NCBI GenBank assembly: GCA_903902915.1
Contig: CAIUWR010000074.1
Location: 1 to 48,753, forward strand
DNA length: 48,753 bases
Direction: 5' to 3'
Source of the DNA: an uncultured Hyphomicrobiales bacterium
GTDB taxonomy: Bacteria > Pseudomonadota > Alphaproteobacteria > Rhizobiales > Beijerinckiaceae
In this document: positions 41,525 through 48,570 of the stretch, piece by piece
Layout of the letters: every line of letters begins with the position of its first letter
How positions within the stretch are numbered: the stretch's first letter is position 1
Made by a program: the position numbers and the translations under genes
Notes under the pieces: model-generated
What the model was told of the DNA's origin: nothing
The model's database searches: none
Seen by the model: only the letters and a program-made list of their open reading frames with translations

Positions 41525-41886
41525 GATTTGCAGCCTCCGCCGCGACCCGTCCGCCCATCCGTGTCCTTGCGCGCGCTCTTCGCCCCCGCAGACGCGCCAA
41601 AATCCATCCTTGAGCGGGTTCATGGCGGGAGAGTTCCTGTCCCCGATTGCGCCCTTGAGTTCCGGTCCATGCGACGTAAAAAGCCAGACGATTTGGCGGG
41701 CGGGAAATGGGGAAAGCCAGACAATAATTATGTGTCAAGGCATATGGCGGGGGAAGGGGGACGCGAACTGAACTCGCTTGGCGGGGAGCCGAGAAACCCT
41801 TCGGGGTCCTGCGGGGAGGTTAAATTGGGGGCAAGCGCGCAGGTTTTCGATGGGGCCCGCCGGGTAGAGACGACCACAACCAGACG
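41525..41886. other. Gene-free spacer between tRNA-Arg and the RES gene
   Basis: I see no convincing gene, RNA or hairpin. The open frames lack ribosome sites. A small repeated element AGCCAGAC appears twice (around 41684 and 41717). Confidence 0.5.
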
Positions 41887-42570
41887 TCAGGCGAAGTCCC
41901 TCTTTTCATAAATCGTGACTATCTTCTTGCCGTCCCAAACATAGCAGAGATGGCGCTCCTGGCGACAATTTGACAGAAGGCGTGGGCGGAACACAGCTGC
42001 GCACTCGCCACCTTCATGACGCACGCTTAGATATAGAATTCCGTTGGATCCATCGTCCCGGAGTTCAGTGGCAAGTGCCTGCGACATGCCGTAACTGCTG
42101 GGGTGGTAATAAGCAGCGTGACTTTCTCGCATCTGGCGGATGTCATGGAACTCGCCATTCAGATCGACGGCATAGACACGCATGTCGAGTTCTTGTGCTG
42201 GTTCATCAGTTGCCTGGAGGAACCTGATACGATGGTAGCGGGTCTCAGCAACGGCCGTCTCCACTGTCAAGCTGGCGTAAAAAACCCCATAGTCGCCGTT
42301 TGTGAAGCGATCTCCTTCTGGGTTTAAGTGCGTAAATGCAGCCATAATTGGCGTCGTGCCGGGACCAGAGACCCGATCCTCCGGCGCAACAAGGAAGATG
42401 TCGCCAACCTCCTCCCGGAGTCGGTCGTTCGTCATTGCTTCGATCTGATAGATGGCTTCCAGATCGCGGGGATCCGTGACGTCTTCAAATAGACTGATCG
42501 GCGGGAATCTGCTCGGCACGATCCGGAAGCAAGGACGCCAAGCTACGTGTGTTTTGGGGATTGCCGCCAT
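41887..42570 (-). CDS. RES-domain toxin
   Basis: The 227-residue protein has the RES fold of toxins that break down NAD+: an early arginine in FRIVPSRF, YASLTVETAVAETRY with the conserved glutamate, and the C-terminal SNGILYLSVRHEGGECAAVFRP. It pairs with the gene immediately upstream, which encodes the Xre/MbcA-type antitoxin; the antitoxin stop and toxin start overlap as TAATG. The active state cannot be confirmed from sequence. Confidence 0.85.
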   Translation of the reverse strand: MAAIPKTHVAWRPCFRIVPSRFPPISLFEDVTDPRDLEAIYQIEAMTNDRLREEVGDIFLVAPEDRVSGPGTTPIMAAFTHLNPEGDRFTNGDYGVFYASLTVETAVAETRYHRIRFLQATDEPAQELDMRVYAVDLNGEFHDIRQMRESHAAYYHPSSYGMSQALATELRDDGSNGILYLSVRHEGGECAAVFRPRLLSNCRQERHLCYVWDGKKIVTIYEKRDFA

Positions 42571-42956
42571 TATCCGCGCTGCGCATCAATGTATTGGCGC
42601 ACGACATAAAGATCCGAGACATTGCCGGAAGCCATTCGTTCTATGGCGGAACGTCCACCGAAGATCCCTGCCTTGTTAGGCTTACGTAACCACTGATCTG
42701 CAGTCTTGGGGAGAAGGATTTGCAGTCCTTTGTATATGCCCAGGATGTAGGAGATGCGCTCCAAAGTATCCTTGGGAACGGCCGCGACTGCACCGCGCTT
42801 CCACGATTGGAATGTGGACCGGCTCTCAAGCCCAAGCAGGCGCATCTGTTCCTGTTCTTTGAGGCTCCAAACCTCTGCAATGCGGAAAAAGGTCCGTAAA
42901 GCAGGTCCTGTAAGGTCCTTGCGATCAAGCGCCTTGGCGGTTGATGTCTCTGACAT
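42570..42956 (-). CDS. Xre/MbcA/ParS-type antitoxin (DUF2384)
   Basis: The 128-residue protein is the antitoxin partner of the RES toxin. It has a helix-turn-helix at about 40-75 (GLESRSTFQSWKRGAVAAVPKDTLERISYIL) and a C-terminal toxin-binding block (KAGIFGGRSAIERMASGNVSDLYVVRQYI). The start at 42956 has GAGGGGAT upstream; 17 codons of extra frame lack support. As is usual for this type it would repress its own promoter. Confidence 0.87.
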   Translation of the reverse strand: MSETSTAKALDRKDLTGPALRTFFRIAEVWSLKEQEQMRLLGLESRSTFQSWKRGAVAAVPKDTLERISYILGIYKGLQILLPKTADQWLRKPNKAGIFGGRSAIERMASGNVSDLYVVRQYIDAQRG

Positions 42957-43564
42957 GATTGCTATCCCCTCGACCAGCCATATGTTCATATTTCTCGTAA
43001 AAGTCAATAATATCCATAAAACTGAACAATGGTCACGCCCAGGTCAATTATGCTGCAAAAAGCTAAGATCATGTCTGGGCATTGTCTAGCCAAGACTGCT
43101 TCGCTGGTGGGCGATGATCGTGAAAACCAGTGACTGGCCATGAAAATTGGATATTTTCTCCCGACATACCGAAAAACAATAATGTGGAAGTTCACAGCCT
43201 GTTTCTCCCCGAAGTCCCAGGAACTCCGTTTATCGTGATGAAATCGGAGCAAAACCTGCGAATCCCGTCGATGCTGCCAGGCATCACGATTTGATGCCGC
43301 CTAGGTCGCGAGCCGTACAGGCCGATGGATTTGTGTCATCGGGCTGGATCTTGGGTTCAACCCACCAGCTCGTGTACTCCCTCGTCGGTCACGCCCCGCT
43401 CTCCTGCGCAGCGCCCCCGCCTGTCCAGATACTGGCCCCGCTGACTTGCGCTCCAGCCCGCCGAAAACCTGTGCGTTTACGCTGTGGGCCGCCAATGGGT
43501 ATCTGAAAAGCTCACCGAGACAAACTAGCCCCGCCTCAATCCCGAGGTCTTTACGGAGGTTAGC
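42957..43564. other. Gene-free stretch between the antitoxin and the HTH gene
   Basis: About 600 bases with no supported gene. The part near the antitoxin is AT-rich and should hold its promoter. The part at 43250-43560 is GC-rich with a short hairpin (GATGC-TGCCAG-GCATC). It may be decayed mobile DNA. Confidence 0.5.
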
Positions 43565-43792
43565 ATGTTAGTAAAGCATCTTAATCAGGTCGAACTCGCC
43601 AAACGCTGGACGATATCGCCGCGGACCTTAGAGCGCTGGCGGTTCCTCAAAACGGGGCCTTACTACCTGAAAATTGGGGGCAGGGTGGTTTACAGGGTTG
43701 AGGATGTCGAGGCGTACGAAGACGAAGTCATCAGAAGGACAACTTTCGAAACGACTCCACCGGCTAACACCATAATCAGACCTTTCAGATAA
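43565..43792 (+). CDS. Excisionase-like helix-turn-helix protein
   Basis: A 75-residue HTH_17/MerR-like protein: LNQVELAKRWTISPRTLERWR is the helix-turn-helix, followed by the wing GPYYLKIGGRVVYRVEDVEAYEDEVI. Such proteins act as excisionases or small regulators in mobile elements. GGAGG lies directly upstream of the start. It is followed by a hairpin and precedes the repressor-like and recombinase genes. Confidence 0.85.
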   Translation: MLVKHLNQVELAKRWTISPRTLERWRFLKTGPYYLKIGGRVVYRVEDVEAYEDEVIRRTTFETTPPANTIIRPFR

Positions 43793-43801
43793 TAGGCGCC
43801 G

Positions 43802-43837
43802 GCAACCCGCAAGTGGCGTTGGCGACTGGCGGGTTGC
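43802..43837 (+). terminator. Hairpin after the excisionase-like gene
   Basis: Arms GCAACCCGC and GCGGGTTGC pair perfectly over nine bases around an 18-base loop, starting ten bases after the stop codon. The T-run is short (TTCC), so its strength as a terminator is uncertain. Confidence 0.45.
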
Positions 43838-43915
43838 TTCCATGCTTTCAGGTGGAAGCTATCAACGGCGCCACCAGAAACGGCTAATTACACTTCGTTT
43901 AGTAATTTCAGAGGG

Positions 43916-44332
43916 TTACTCACCAATTTTGTCGGAAAGGTCAGTTACGCCTTCGTCAATCCGTGTGATACTTCGAACAGCCGCCAGCAGCTCGATTATC
44001 GCCTCCTCCGCCGCAGCCAACTTCAGGGCCGCCATGAGATCCTGACGGCCGGCCATCACCAGAAATGTTGTCAAAACCTCATCCGAGCACTGTACGAGGA
44101 CCGCAAGGTGCGCTCCACTCGGGCCATAGCGCCCGGAAAACCAGTTCTTCACGGTCTTCTCGTTGGCCCCAGTCCAATTGGCTACGATTTTTATGCCTGC
44201 ACTGCCTTTCCCGGCCGACCGGCGCAACGCAGCGGCGATCTCACCAGCAAAACTGCCAGCATGCTGAACTGCGACGGCAGGTGCATGCCCGTTTCGGCCT
44301 GGAAAGAACTTGCCCTTTTTCGGAAACGACAT
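43916..44332 (-). CDS. Repressor-like HTH protein
   Basis: A 138-residue protein with a phage-regulator-like helix-turn-helix at about 47-70 (KIVANWTGANEKTVKNWFSGRYG) and a helical C-terminal half (about 75-128). Start at 44332 has AGGAGGA upstream; the frame upstream lacks support. It is divergent from the serine recombinase operon, with only about 90 bases between the starts, so it probably controls both. The family is not named in what I can recall. Confidence 0.75.
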   Translation of the reverse strand: MSFPKKGKFFPGRNGHAPAVAVQHAGSFAGEIAAALRRSAGKGSAGIKIVANWTGANEKTVKNWFSGRYGPSGAHLAVLVQCSDEVLTTFLVMAGRQDLMAALKLAAAEEAIIELLAAVRSITRIDEGVTDLSDKIGE

Positions 44333-44425
44333 TCCATCCTCCTTGGCTCTACATAAGCAAGGAGATTTGAAGGGATCACGATGCGGGGCACACGATGGCC
44401 GCCGTGAAAACGAGAGGATGGGCGG

Positions 44426-46000
44426 TTGAGTGGACGATATGCGAAAACTCCGCAGACAGGTGAACAAGATGCCGACAAGGACATACCCGCTGTCGCCTAC
44501 GTCCGCATGTCCACCGATCACCAGAAGTACTCGACCGAGAACCAGTTCGACGTCATCCAGAATTATGCCAACACACGCGGCCTGACCATCTTGCGGGTAT
44601 TCGAGGACTCCGGCCGTTCGGGGCTACGATTAGACGGACGCGAAGCACTTCAGAAACTGATGTCAGAGGTAAAATCCGGCCAAGCGGACTTTAAGGCCAT
44701 CCTTGTCTATGACGTAAGCCGCTGGGGTCGGTTTCAAGACGCTGATGAGGGTGCCTATCATGAGCATGTATGCTCACGGGCAGGAATCCGGGTCCATTAC
44801 TGCGGTGAGCAATTCGAAAACGATGGTAGCATCGGTTCAAACCTATTGAAAACCGTCAAGCGAGTGATGGCGGGCGAGTACAGCCGCGAACTTTCCGTCA
44901 AGGTCTTCGCGGGTCAGTGTCGCCTCGTTGAACTCGGTTTCAGACAGGGAGGTGCTGCTGGTTATGGGCTCCGCCGCGTCCTCATCGATGAACATGGTAC
45001 GCCCAAAGGCGAGCTCTCGCGCGGCGAACAGAAAAGCTTACAGACCGACCGCGTCATTCTGCTCCCCGGCCCCGATGAAGAGCAGCGCATCGTGCAGTCG
45101 ATGTACCAGATGTTCGTCAACGAGAACCGGCCCGAACGTGAAATTGCCGAACACCTGAACGCTCAGGGATGTCGCACGGATCTCAACCGACCATGGACGC
45201 GAGCCACTGTTCACCAAGTCCTGACGAACGAGAAATACATAGGCAACAACGTTTTCGCCAAATTCTCATTCAAGCTGAAGCAGCGCCGCGTCCAGAATTC
45301 GAGGGAGATGTGGATTCGTGCCCAGGGTGTTTATCCCGCCATCGTCGATACCACACTGTTCATTCGCGCCCGAGAGATCGTCGATGCACGGAGCCGACAT
45401 TTCACAGATGAGGAGCTCCTCGCTACTTTGCGAGATATTCTCGTCCGAGAGGGAATGCTATCCGGCCTCACTATCGACGAGCAGGACCACGTCCCCTCTT
45501 CAAGCGCCTACAAAAGCCGCTTTGGGAGCTTGCTGCGTGCCTATCAACTGATCGGATATGAACCGGAGCGCGACTATCGCTACATCGAAATCAATCAGGC
45601 CCTTAGGAAAAGCCACCCTAAGGTCGTCGCGGAGATCATTAACTGCATCGCTCGTTCCGGCGGTAGCGTAGTCCCCGATCCCAAAACCGATCATATCCGC
45701 GTCAATGACGAATTCACGATTTCGGTCGTTTTATCGCGCTGTCAAGAAACACGGACAGGCTCTTTGAGATGGAAAATTCGGCTTGATACAGGTCTTGTTC
45801 CCGACATTACGATTGCTGTCCGCATGGACGAAGCAAACGAAGCGCCGAGGGACTACTACCTCCTCCCCAGCATCGATATGACGCGCGATCGCCTTCGGCT
45901 CTCGGAGCAAAACGGCTTCTCTCTCGACGCCTATCGGTTCGAAACGCTCGACTTTTTCTATGCGCTTGCTGGACGCGCGCGAATTGCGGAGGCTGCATGA
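44426..46000 (+). CDS. Serine recombinase with extended C-terminus
   Basis: The 524-residue protein has a resolvase-type catalytic domain with Arg27 and nucleophile Ser29 (YVRMSTDHQ), VFEDSGRSG (about 58-66) and DVSRWGR (96-102), then a Recombinase domain (about 175-290, with GYGLRR and LTNEKYIGNNV). After about residue 340 comes a 180-residue tail not found in simple resolvases, with PSSSAYKSRFGSLLRAYQLIG and RDYRYIEINQAL. The zinc-ribbon cysteines of large phage integrases are not evident. The likely start is TTG at 44426 (GAGAGG upstream); the nearest ATG leads to an early stop. Its stop overlaps the next start. Confidence 0.88.
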   Translation: MSGRYAKTPQTGEQDADKDIPAVAYVRMSTDHQKYSTENQFDVIQNYANTRGLTILRVFEDSGRSGLRLDGREALQKLMSEVKSGQADFKAILVYDVSRWGRFQDADEGAYHEHVCSRAGIRVHYCGEQFENDGSIGSNLLKTVKRVMAGEYSRELSVKVFAGQCRLVELGFRQGGAAGYGLRRVLIDEHGTPKGELSRGEQKSLQTDRVILLPGPDEEQRIVQSMYQMFVNENRPEREIAEHLNAQGCRTDLNRPWTRATVHQVLTNEKYIGNNVFAKFSFKLKQRRVQNSREMWIRAQGVYPAIVDTTLFIRAREIVDARSRHFTDEELLATLRDILVREGMLSGLTIDEQDHVPSSSAYKSRFGSLLRAYQLIGYEPERDYRYIEINQALRKSHPKVVAEIINCIARSGGSVVPDPKTDHIRVNDEFTISVVLSRCQETRTGSLRWKIRLDTGLVPDITIAVRMDEANEAPRDYYLLPSIDMTRDRLRLSEQNGFSLDAYRFETLDFFYALAGRARIAEAA

Positions 46001-46911
46001 TGGACCATGGAAATGATGTCACTTCAGAGAAACGCATTGTCCATATTCCACCCGAGCAGATTCGAGTACTCAATCCTCGGGTTCGTAATCGCCGCACCTT
46101 CGACGAGATTGTAGAAAATATTTCTCGGGTTGGCTTGAAGCGGCCAATAACCGTCAGTCGACGCGCTGATACGGACCCTGTCCAATATGATCTCGTATGC
46201 GGTCAGGGCCGCCTTGAGGCCTTTATAAAACTAGGCCAAGGGACGATCCCCGCCATCATCATCAATGCCGACGAACGCGAATGCCTTGTCATGAGTCTCG
46301 TAGAAAACTGCGCGCGGCGCCAGCACAAGGCTATCGACATTATGCGCGAAATTGGTGCCTTGCGAAAGCGTGGCTATAGTATCCGGCAGATCGGGGATAA
46401 GATCGGGTTTTCGTCGGAATATGTGAATATGATCGCCGGTCTCCTCGACCGTGGGGAGGAGCGCTTGGTGTCAGCAGTCGAGATGGGTGTCCTACCTCTC
46501 GGTCTCGCAGTCGACATATCAAAAGCCGCAGATGAGAATGCACAGCGCGCCCTGGTAGAGGCCTATACGGAAAAGAAGTTGCGCGGGAAAAAGCTCGCGA
46601 CCGTGCTGCGGCTATTGCAGCAGCGCCAACGGCGTGGGCGTCATCTGAGGGATACCGGCATGGGGCGCAAGGAAGGCTACAAGCGGCCGCTTACAAGCGA
46701 TGCCTTGGTGCGGGCTTACCGACAGGAAACAGACCGCCAGAAGCTAATGATCAAGAAGGCGGAACTTACGCAGGGCCGGCTGCTATTTGTTGTGGAAGCA
46801 TTCCGCTTGCTGCGCGATGATGAGAATTTTCTGACGCTACTGCGCGCTGAAGGACTGGAAATGATGCCCACCTATCTCGAAGATTCACTCCAGGTTCGGT
46901 CTCCAGCATGA
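45997..46911 (+). CDS. ParB/RepB-like protein 1 of the recombinase operon
   Basis: The 304-residue protein has a ParB N-terminal-type domain (about 14-110; PEQIRVLNPRVRNRRTFDEIVENI and the nucleotide-box region CGQGRLEAF at 68-76), a helix-turn-helix (about 126-150, YSIRQIGDKIGFSSEYVNMI) and a RepB-like C-terminal domain (about 175-300). In plasmid ParB proteins the box reads GERRxRA; here it is GQGRLEA, so CTP use is uncertain. Its ATG overlaps the recombinase stop by four bases. No ParA gene is nearby. Confidence 0.85.
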   Translation: MMDHGNDVTSEKRIVHIPPEQIRVLNPRVRNRRTFDEIVENISRVGLKRPITVSRRADTDPVQYDLVCGQGRLEAFIKLGQGTIPAIIINADERECLVMSLVENCARRQHKAIDIMREIGALRKRGYSIRQIGDKIGFSSEYVNMIAGLLDRGEERLVSAVEMGVLPLGLAVDISKAADENAQRALVEAYTEKKLRGKKLATVLRLLQQRQRRGRHLRDTGMGRKEGYKRPLTSDALVRAYRQETDRQKLMIKKAELTQGRLLFVVEAFRLLRDDENFLTLLRAEGLEMMPTYLEDSLQVRSPA

Positions 46912-47816
46912 CAAAGAACACCCAATCCAATGGCGCTGACGTATCTGTGGGCTTCGAAGGCGATTTCATCAGATTATCTATCGACTCCATTTTGCCAATC
47001 CGTTCCTTTCCAGCTGCAGTTAGGATCAGCAGAAAATTTAAGCAAATCGCTGCTTCAGTGCGGGAAGTCGGGCTCGTCGAACCACCTGTCATTGCGCGTA
47101 GCCCTGGCCAACCAGGAAGCTTCCTACTGCTGGATGGCCATCTTCGCATCGAAGTTCTGAAGGACCTCGGGATTTTGGAGGTCGATTGCCTTGTATCAAC
47201 GGATGACGAGGCTTTCACCTACAACAAGCGGATCAGCCGCTTGTCGCCCGTGCAGGAACACCGGATGATCGTAAAGGCGATTGAGCGCGGGGTGTCGGAA
47301 GACAAGATTGCGAAAGCGCTCGACATCTTACCCCAAAGCGTCAGGCGAAAGACCAAGATGTTGGATGGGATCAGCGATGAGGTCGCCAGTATCTTGAAGG
47401 ACAAGCAGTGCCCAACTGGTGTCTTCGAAATTCTCCGAAAAATGAAGATTCTTCGGCAGATCGAGACCGCCGAGCTACTTGTAAACGCAAATAATTATTC
47501 CATTGCCTATGCGTCAGCCATTCTCGCCGGAACCCCACAGGCCCAGTTGGTCGATAGCTCTAAGCCCAAGCTGCTGAAACGGATGACGCCAGAGGCAATG
47601 GCGCGGATGGAGGGGGAGCTTGCTCGGTTGCAGGAGAGCTTCACGTCCATACAGGACTCCTACGGCCAGGATCACTTAAAACTAACCGTCATCAAGGGAT
47701 ACGTAGCCAAGCTCCTCGGCAACGCCCGGATAGTCCGATACTTCATGCAGAATCGGCCGGATTTCATGGCAGAGTTTCAGACCATTGCAGAGATGACGTC
47801 GACACTCCCCCCTTAA
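46908..47816 (+). CDS. ParB/RepB-like protein 2 of the recombinase operon
   Basis: The 302-residue protein is a second, diverged ParB-fold protein: SIDSILPIRSF, IAASVREVGLVEPPVI, then LLLDGHLRIEVLKDLG (about 73-88) with DGHLR in place of GERRxRA, and a helix-turn-helix (about 129-150, VSEDKIAKALDILPQSVRRKTK). The C-terminal half is helical and RepB-like. The start overlaps the previous stop by four bases. The difference from protein 1 in the nucleotide box suggests the two do not do the same job. Confidence 0.83.
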   Translation: MTKNTQSNGADVSVGFEGDFIRLSIDSILPIRSFPAAVRISRKFKQIAASVREVGLVEPPVIARSPGQPGSFLLLDGHLRIEVLKDLGILEVDCLVSTDDEAFTYNKRISRLSPVQEHRMIVKAIERGVSEDKIAKALDILPQSVRRKTKMLDGISDEVASILKDKQCPTGVFEILRKMKILRQIETAELLVNANNYSIAYASAILAGTPQAQLVDSSKPKLLKRMTPEAMARMEGELARLQESFTSIQDSYGQDHLKLTVIKGYVAKLLGNARIVRYFMQNRPDFMAEFQTIAEMTSTLPP

Positions 47817-47946
47817 GCGTTGCAAACGGGCTAGTGCAGGATGGGGACCCGGACCCGACAAGCGCGGGGACCGCAGGAGACGCCGCACGGTGGGGCGGAT
47901 CGAGCGCGGCTGTGGGGACGACGGCGAACCCGTTCAGAGCCCACTA

Positions 47947-47992
47947 GGCCAGCATGAGCTTTCGCTGGCCGTATGGCTGAGGTTCGTCAGCC
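47947..47992 (+). terminator. Two hairpins downstream of the ParB genes
   Basis: GGCCAGC/GCTGGCC (47947-47970) and GGCTGA/TCAGCC (47975-47992) form neighbouring stems about 130 bases past the operon stop. No T-run follows. They may end the operon or be structured DNA of the element. Confidence 0.35.
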
Positions 47993-47999
47993 GTAAGGT

Positions 48000-48164
48000 A
48001 TGTGGGCGTGCTGGTTGAGCGCTGTTACGCTCCTGGCACGCCCCGTCAATCGGAAGATTCGTTTGGGGGACATATACCGATTGGAAGACATTGAAGCCTT
48101 CGTCATCGCCTCTTTAGGCCTGCGACAGTCGTTCCGATGCCGTGTGTCGAAAAATATTACATAG
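48000..48164 (+). pseudogene. Remnant of an excisionase-like HTH protein
   Basis: The frame from 48000 to the stop at 48162-48164 encodes a 54-residue peptide whose middle, DIYRLEDIEAFVIASLG, matches the C-terminal wing of HTH_17 proteins such as the one at 43565. The expected helix-turn-helix before it is missing from this frame but partly visible in another frame (LVERCYAPGTP), so a frameshift has probably destroyed the gene. AAGG precedes the ATG, so expression of the fragment cannot be ruled out. Confidence 0.5.
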
Positions 48165-48570
48165 CGCTCGATCCGCTAACCCAACCTCGGGTTTTATCGT
48201 TCCTGGTAGGCGGCGGGCATTACCAACTTGCGGGATCTAGAGTAGGGGCGGGTGACGGTCGCTCGAATTGGGCTGGACGCAAGCGTACCCAAGCGGCGGA
48301 TCGCATCTAACTGCTTAGAAGAGAAGAGTTTTTCTAGGCTGGAATGTCGATTCCAGCGGATCCCAGGGAGGGTCTTCGGGCTAGAGAGAGTTCGTTCGCA
48401 ACGCTGCGTAATGGCGGAAGGGGTGTCCGCCAGATAACTTGGAATAACAGCTACTTAGAATAGCTGTTATCTTTTGTCCCCTCCTTCATCCCCGCTTTTC
48501 TCGGCGGTATGGATCGATCGGATCTGAACAAGAAGACGAAAGCTCCGGATGCCGAGTCCTGTCTAACCCC
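48165..48570. other. Gene-free stretch near the right edge
   Basis: No supported gene. Apart from the hairpin at 48444-48478 I see no clear structure; one 61-codon open frame at 48252-48437 has no ribosome site and no family resemblance. Confidence 0.5.
48444..48478. terminator. Terminator-like hairpin (perfect 10-base-pair stem)
   Basis: ATAACAGCTA and TAGCTGTTAT pair perfectly around a 7-base loop and are followed by CTTTTGT on the plus strand. The minus-strand gene ending at 48571 also reads toward it, so it may serve transcripts from both sides. Confidence 0.6.

Follow-up and report, generated by a model that had tools for sequence, protein, structure and literature searches.

Large serine recombinases are known to act alone or with one directionality factor, and the question raised by the locus examined here is what two different ParB-fold proteins are doing directly behind the gene of such an enzyme. 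The locus lies on contig CAIUWR010000074.1 of an uncultured Hyphomicrobiales bacterium; the whole stretch analysed, 48,753 nucleotides long, is hereafter called the window. A large serine recombinase gene (44426-46000) is followed by the genes of RepB1 (45997-46911) and RepB2 (46908-47816), all three on the + strand and joined by four-base ATGA overlaps at 45997-46000 and 46908-46911, so that the coordinates of the open reading frames (ORFs) agree with the junctions given in an earlier note on this DNA. These genes form a unit that is nearly obligate and is maintained over large distances. Together with a divergent regulator gene and, often, a folded RNA on the 3' side, they may form a compact mobile recombination module, which is our best explanation, held tentatively and at slightly less than an even chance.

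The recombinase and its two ParB-fold partners

The recombinase (524 aa, TTG start) displays the Pfam domains Resolvase (PF00239, 1.9e-20) and Recombinase (PF07508, 4.2e-22), and its active-serine motif YVRMSTxxQ is intact and invariant in 22 aligned recombinase rows. While Pfam thus bears out the serine recombinase of the earlier note, the C-terminal tail beyond the Recombinase match was given there as 180 residues and in fact comprises residues 322-524, i.e., 203 aa, without any Pfam domain. A weak HTH_62 match is the sole Pfam result beyond the serine recombinase domains, no zinc ribbon was matched at E<=0.1, and among the tail cysteines none is invariant in the alignment and one is nearly so. 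Domains and catalytic motif are those of large serine recombinases and phage serine integrases (PHROG 95), from which the enzyme differs by the lack of a Pfam zinc ribbon, by another tail and by the nearly constant presence of two ParB-fold partners. Its best NCBIfam matches, CcrB (9.7e-18) and CcrC (1.3e-11), recall the SCC cassettes with their CcrA/B/C recombinases, which exchange at a short site. However, the score of 64.1 bits lies far below the equivalog cut-off of 900, and tRNA-3'-end-like repeats, ParB proteins and an RNA also set the present locus apart. The predicted structure of the recombinase is weak (pLDDT 70.9, pTM 0.41).

Regarding the two proteins that follow, Pfam finds RepB (PF07506) in both, in agreement with their earlier description as RepB/ParB-like. 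RepB1 (304 aa) combines this domain (7.9e-31) with a ParB N-domain (ParB_N, 4.1e-9), and RepB2 (302 aa), a divergent ParB-fold protein, matches RepB at 8.7e-51 and ParB_N at 0.098 only. The changed nucleotide boxes noticed earlier are present and turn out to be family features as well: in the place of the canonical ParB CTP box, GERRxRA, RepB1 has GQGRLEA, with the family form G-x-G-R-x-x-A (GxGRxxA) kept in 13/13 aligned rows, and RepB2 has DGHLR, with the family form L-L-D-G-H-x-R (DGHxR) kept in as many. The DGHxR of RepB2 may resemble a kinase motif. The RepB1 profile matches chains of Spo0J, ParB, Noc, and KorB, as does, more weakly, that of RepB2, the predicted structure of which (pLDDT 75.8) is nearest to ParB, Noc, and KorB, followed at a weaker level by sulfiredoxin, PadC, and free serine kinase. 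In PADLOC, weak matches were obtained with RepB2 alone (MTase_II, 4.2e-5; a CARF model, 0.0025). ParB, Noc, and KorB are CTP clamps; the pair shares their N-domain and fold but differs from them in that no ParA was found, the nucleotide box is altered and a recombinase is linked.

An initial scan of genome contigs with one protein as query had returned no relative. A scan with a RepB2 profile gave at least 594 stretches, at least 530 of which code for relatives, and the best 80, i.e., those nearest to the RepB2 of the window, were kept. The neighbourhood search proposed in the earlier note shows the trio as a conserved unit among them: the order recombinase-RepB1-RepB2 is found in 70 of the 71 loci with room for it (at least 2,550 bp before RepB2), the exception being L065, where recombinase and RepB1 are only partial, and nine more loci are cut by contig ends. 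A relative of the divergent regulator was detected (tblastn, E<=1e-3) in 65 of the 71 loci that offer 3,100 bp or more for it. Among 101 related genomes, RepB2 occurs in seven, and all ten matches, the window's own included, adjoin a recombinase and RepB1. In a wider search, 30 PF07506 loci comprised 17 with the full trio, two with a recombinase and one RepB-like protein, and 11 without a match, so that proteins of other kinds also go by this Pfam name; in two of these trio loci (L312, L313) the recombinase is only 25-29% identical. The possibility raised earlier that the ParB genes are regularly found without the recombinase is thus not borne out for close relatives, and holds for distant PF07506 proteins. 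A two-gene relative, in which a recombinase of 43-44% identity stands beside one RepB-like protein, was seen in L318 and L322.

Among the matches listed, record titles of the RepB2-profile relatives are mostly alphaproteobacterial. Relatives also occur in metagenome-assembled genomes (MAGs) labelled Gammaproteobacteria, Nitrospinaceae, Thermoanaerobaculia, and Verrucomicrobiales, labels that may reflect mis-binning; one contig labelled Gammaproteobacteria (L047) is 97% identical to a contig of an Actibacterium MAG. Plasmid carriers include Agrobacterium, Sphingobium, Roseomonas, Methylibium, and Pseudomonas, and in the one stretch of S. meliloti examined only pieces of RepB2 are left.

The family names RepB and ParB invite the explanation that the trio is a ParA-less partition system which incidentally holds a resolvase. 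Many trio contigs are chromosome-sized, though, the recombinase is nearly obligate, one ParA query had no match in 80 loci, and the Sphingobium plasmids that bear the trio encode a separate ParA-ParB at a distance of about 16 kb. We therefore regard this explanation as very improbable, and the earlier view that ordinary partition does not account for these genes is strengthened. In addition, no ParA, RepC or relaxase was seen beside the trio on the contig, as stated before, in a search that covered part of the ORFs of the window.

The structured element downstream of RepB2

The three genes listed in the earlier note are not the whole of the locus, as a conserved divergent gene and a conserved non-coding element were missing from that list. 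Between the window and seven relatives, the DNA 3' of RepB2 is 80-93% identical over 60-200 nt, and iterated nhmmer delimited an element of about 125 nt (about 126 positions) in 71 of 97 trio tails, some of them near-identical and one a remnant; the element starts 18-99 nt past the end of the RepB2 match. In the window, it lies at 47837-47981 on the + strand and, as judged from nhmmer, covariation and a covariance model termed R1, is a conserved structured non-coding element with six helices, putatively an RNA. By folding, it is followed by a GC-rich, terminator-like hairpin without a T run (48002-48044, +), and homology among several close copies stops at a similar hairpin. No Rfam match was found in 47700-48300 at E<=1.

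From 68 nearly full matches, 53 rows were left at 95% redundancy and 46 were aligned; the alignment omitted seven longer rows (147-171 nt) and kept one row of 147 nt (L037). RNAalifold gave 31 pairs, 16 with double changes. Doubly changed cells number 108, as compared with 27.0 +/- 4.5 in shuffled and 4-16 in slid versions, cells pairing on the consensus structure amount to 97.3% vs 89.4% shuffled, and covariation is 0.301 vs 0.155 +/- 0.007 shuffled and 0.036-0.110 slid, comparisons in which the structure, being derived from the same alignment, is favoured over the slid versions and the shuffles ignore kinship. Considering the size of the effect on doubly changed cells, the structure is very likely under selection. 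Among rows picked for having the element, it is more alike than the DNA of RepB2 in 1346 of 1378 pairs.

The loops are conserved as much as the stems, which is also in keeping with a DNA site, where either ParB or recombinase sites would be clustered or single-stranded DNA would fold into a recombination site, and where DNA folding would account for the pairing. When whole loci were searched outside the tails, one copy was found, in L112 (17658-17800), 6.8 kb to the right of the trio and behind an unrelated long ORF, a position that likewise suits a DNA site. Yet one-sided G-U changes are numerous, with 17 and 9 sequences at two of the pairs, and fit RNA, G-T in DNA being possible, and the copies are mostly co-directional after RepB2; a DNA site is thus considered unlikely and a putative RNA is retained as the preferred description. 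R1 scores 145.9 bits on the window copy, itself among the model rows, and yields 13 matches in 12 of 99 sources, all of them trio loci and two of the matches in L112, from a source list in which many trio loci had been picked for having no nhmmer match. It gave no match in the supplied left-end loci without trio or in PF07506 loci without trio.

A recombinase with an adjacent structured RNA is also seen in the IS110 recombinases and their bridge RNA (PMC11208158). The differences are that the recombinase belongs here to another family, Pfam revealing serine recombinase domains in place of those of IS110-type transposases, and that the RNA loops are conserved across loci rather than matched to targets. 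Guiding of the recombinase by words common to the element and to tRNA-Ser or site motifs was considered and rejected, as words at least as long as those observed occurred in 15, 44, 79, 122, 203, and 266 of 300 controls.

Apparent mobility of the trio and its candidate target sites

The trio appears to be mobile, or to ride on mobile DNA, judging from comparisons of related sequences. The plasmids pAtC58 and pAt1D1460 share a 3,904-bp block, 96.9% identical, which comprises only the regulator and the trio and lies in different surroundings. Homology begins and ends at imperfect direct repeats of about 21 bp (left vs right, 16/21 identical within pAtC58), and the repeat, CGCCTTGAnnGGAnTCGAACCnnCGnCC, resembles, when reverse-complemented, the T-arm and 3' end of a tRNA. 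Seven stretches from six plasmids were compared that have the same neighbour, i.e., a Fic, AbiE or sugar-binding gene, and no trio there. In six of the seven, the repeat is present at the junction with at most two mismatches to the pattern: Shinella and A. vitis (Fic), A. salinitolerans and A. larrymoorei (AbiE), and CG920 and 1D132 (Fic, on the other side); no repeat was found at the junction on the sugar-binding side of pAt1D132a. For the window itself, the segment from approximately 43843 to 48169 (no strand assigned) is absent from a relative of the same genus (G018), where the flanks 43521-43842 (235/322 identical) and 48170-48423 (193/254) lie 26 bp apart, beside tRNA-Ser(GGA), no trio being found in this genome, which is 58% complete. 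The comparison of genomes with and without the element suggested in the earlier note has yielded a block-like presence and absence of the unit, with closely spaced flanks in G018 and the repeat at most of the plasmid junctions.

A further type of end was recognized as a 36-bp motif to the left of the trio in 29 loci (weight matrix >18), with constant orientation; 17 of the 29 are among the sequences that built the matrix. The outer part of this motif resembles the 3' end of tRNA-Ser. In six loci (L012, L036, L038, L053, L055, L068), it is separated by about 110-150 bp from where the regulator match ends. The motif was found in 32 of 297 genomes of the order, with no control hit, and in at least 17 of 297 by a separate scan in which only some candidates were scored in many genomes. 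A tRNA T-arm pattern (at most one mismatch) occurs 56 times in 128.7 kb to the left of the trio, 38 times in 126.1 kb to the right and 278 times in 1,015 kb farther away, which amounts at most to a mild excess on the left. Tyrosine integrases like those queried occur in nine loci of the set behind the 97 tails, with short flanks, a count taken in favour of the recombination module.

Several results weigh against that module as here conceived. No nhmmer match to the element was obtained in 26 of the 97 trio tails, those of Agrobacterium included, and when 23 distinct trio places were taken from genome searches with less selection, R1 matched only 8 of them (G004, G052:C303, G087:C2, G087:C6, G159, G177, G199, and G203), so that many trios, though not every one, include the RNA. 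The plasmid repeat is present in 13 of 18 records, at 68 sites vs 4 control hits, and many copies have no trio. G018 may have lost the segment by deletion and not represent an empty site, insertion and deletion being indistinguishable there. The trio is present in only 5 of the 32 motif-positive genomes, vs 1 of 48 chosen motif-negative ones, the window's own genome counting as motif-negative by the pattern of the genome scan. Moreover, a second large serine recombinase, with the working label LSR2, is located 200-400 bp from tRNA-Ser-type junctions in several loci and belongs, in L053 and L057, to the same element as the trio. Together with the figure of 5/32, LSR2 near the junctions indicates that the sites are used by a broader range of elements and that the trio cannot be called their sole driver.

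These last observations also bring in the possibility that the trio is a passenger, i.e., an accessory near the left end of prophage-like LSR2 elements that insert at tRNA-Ser 3' ends, which might serve, for example, in immunity, in exclusion or in regulating the host element. The end of LSR2 is 355 bp away from tRNA-Ser in L057 and 391-400 bp away from the left-end motif in L055 and L246, fragments of it lie 200-320 bp from junctions in L053, L201, and L253, and ORFs near left ends of genome G205 look phage-like by eye. A diagnostic word of the RNA is, in addition, present on 38 stretches of viral contigs, 29 of them with RepB2 just upstream, six cut by the contig edge and three in which the visible upstream sequence of 497-1,560 nt has no RepB2; the placement of the 29 counts in favour of the module as well. 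Against such a role stand the pAt unit, in which regulator and trio alone lie between repeats, the left-end motifs close to the regulator in the six loci above, and the finding of LSR2 in 10 trio loci only, with flanks mostly of at most 10 kb. On balance, the passenger explanation is possible, and is given a rather modest probability. In L053, L055, L057, L201, L246, and L253, LSR2 probably serves as integrase to a distinct family of elements. In one of the viral stretches without RepB2 (L332), the sequence before the element resembles, by eye, the start of the divergent gene, which looks like a deletion.

The 51-bp repeats of two Sphingobium plasmids were also considered as the module's own ends, an idea weakened by the variability of the slot, two repeat copies being found only in the two plasmids with both ars genes and the module. 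Across L026-L029 and L139-L142, this slot is occupied by ars genes, by SLC13/NhaA genes, or by the module together with a gene that is CoiA-like or of another kind. A 20-bp motif resembling a tRNA T-arm is scattered over rhizobial megaplasmids, W01 (NC_003064.2) among them, with strand polarity: 14/14 copies in pAtC58 lie on one strand, and in pAt1D1460 and a pSymA the strand changes from one record end to the other.

Neighbouring genes and a possible mechanism

The divergent regulator of the window (43916-44332, - strand) is a small HTH-like protein, labelled xre for working purposes, with no Pfam family; its relatives are divergent to the recombinase. Its ORF runs to 44521, and the start MSFPKKGK at about 44332 was deduced from a relative, the same start being found in L199. 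Beyond it lies a small HTH gene (43565-43792; working label AlpA-like) with an HTH_17 match of 1.4e-5, just under the cut-off, and a PHROG excisionase match of 2.4e-5. A similar small HTH gene is found near the module, on either side, in eight loci (E<=1e-4: the window, L035, L047, L063, L064, L068, L072, and L091). Farther left, a RES-Xre toxin-antitoxin pair (41887-43007) belongs to a cassette (41745-43346) that is 98.9% identical to a sequence of another genome of the genus (G036:C334) and starts exactly at a left-end-type site motif (41745-41780, +; weight-matrix score 19.5, control maximum 14.6). In the loci examined, toxin-antitoxin or defence genes are often found close by. On the other side, the window has TGGCGGAAGGGGTG at 48412-48425 (+), a sequence shared with the tRNA-Ser(TGA) of the same genome, on C54, at its 3' end, and the contig ends at 48753.

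In the recombination module favoured here, the recombinase would cut and rejoin at the tRNA-3'-end-like repeats, while RepB1, with its near-canonical box, and RepB2, with its altered box, would load on the DNA of the element and act as directionality or architectural factors. The divergent regulator would control the operon, and the 3' RNA could belong to this machine in a regulatory or ribonucleoprotein role. Judging from gene linkage by itself, it is plausible that the ParB proteins would direct the recombinase in its target, direction or regulation, as suggested in the earlier note, which did not yet reckon with the RNA element. A bolder version, in which the folded RNA would be a working subunit of a recombinase-ParB complex and, together with the ParB-type clamps, would direct or license recombination, is improbable in our estimate, which was lowered slightly because the RNA is found in so few of the 23 trio places outside the closest RepB2 relatives of the window.

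The trio was not found described in the titles and abstract beginnings of open-licence PMC literature. In a study of Paracoccus prophages with serine recombinases, the sites of which were mostly not identified, the word RepB does not appear (PMC6536676).

If the proposed module is real, a pair of ParB-fold proteins, often with a structured RNA, would represent a new control logic for DNA integration by serine recombinases, and possibly a new recombination tool. It would also give meaning to many genes that bear the name "plasmid partitioning protein RepB", a name taken from plasmid records, among the at least 530 related stretches.

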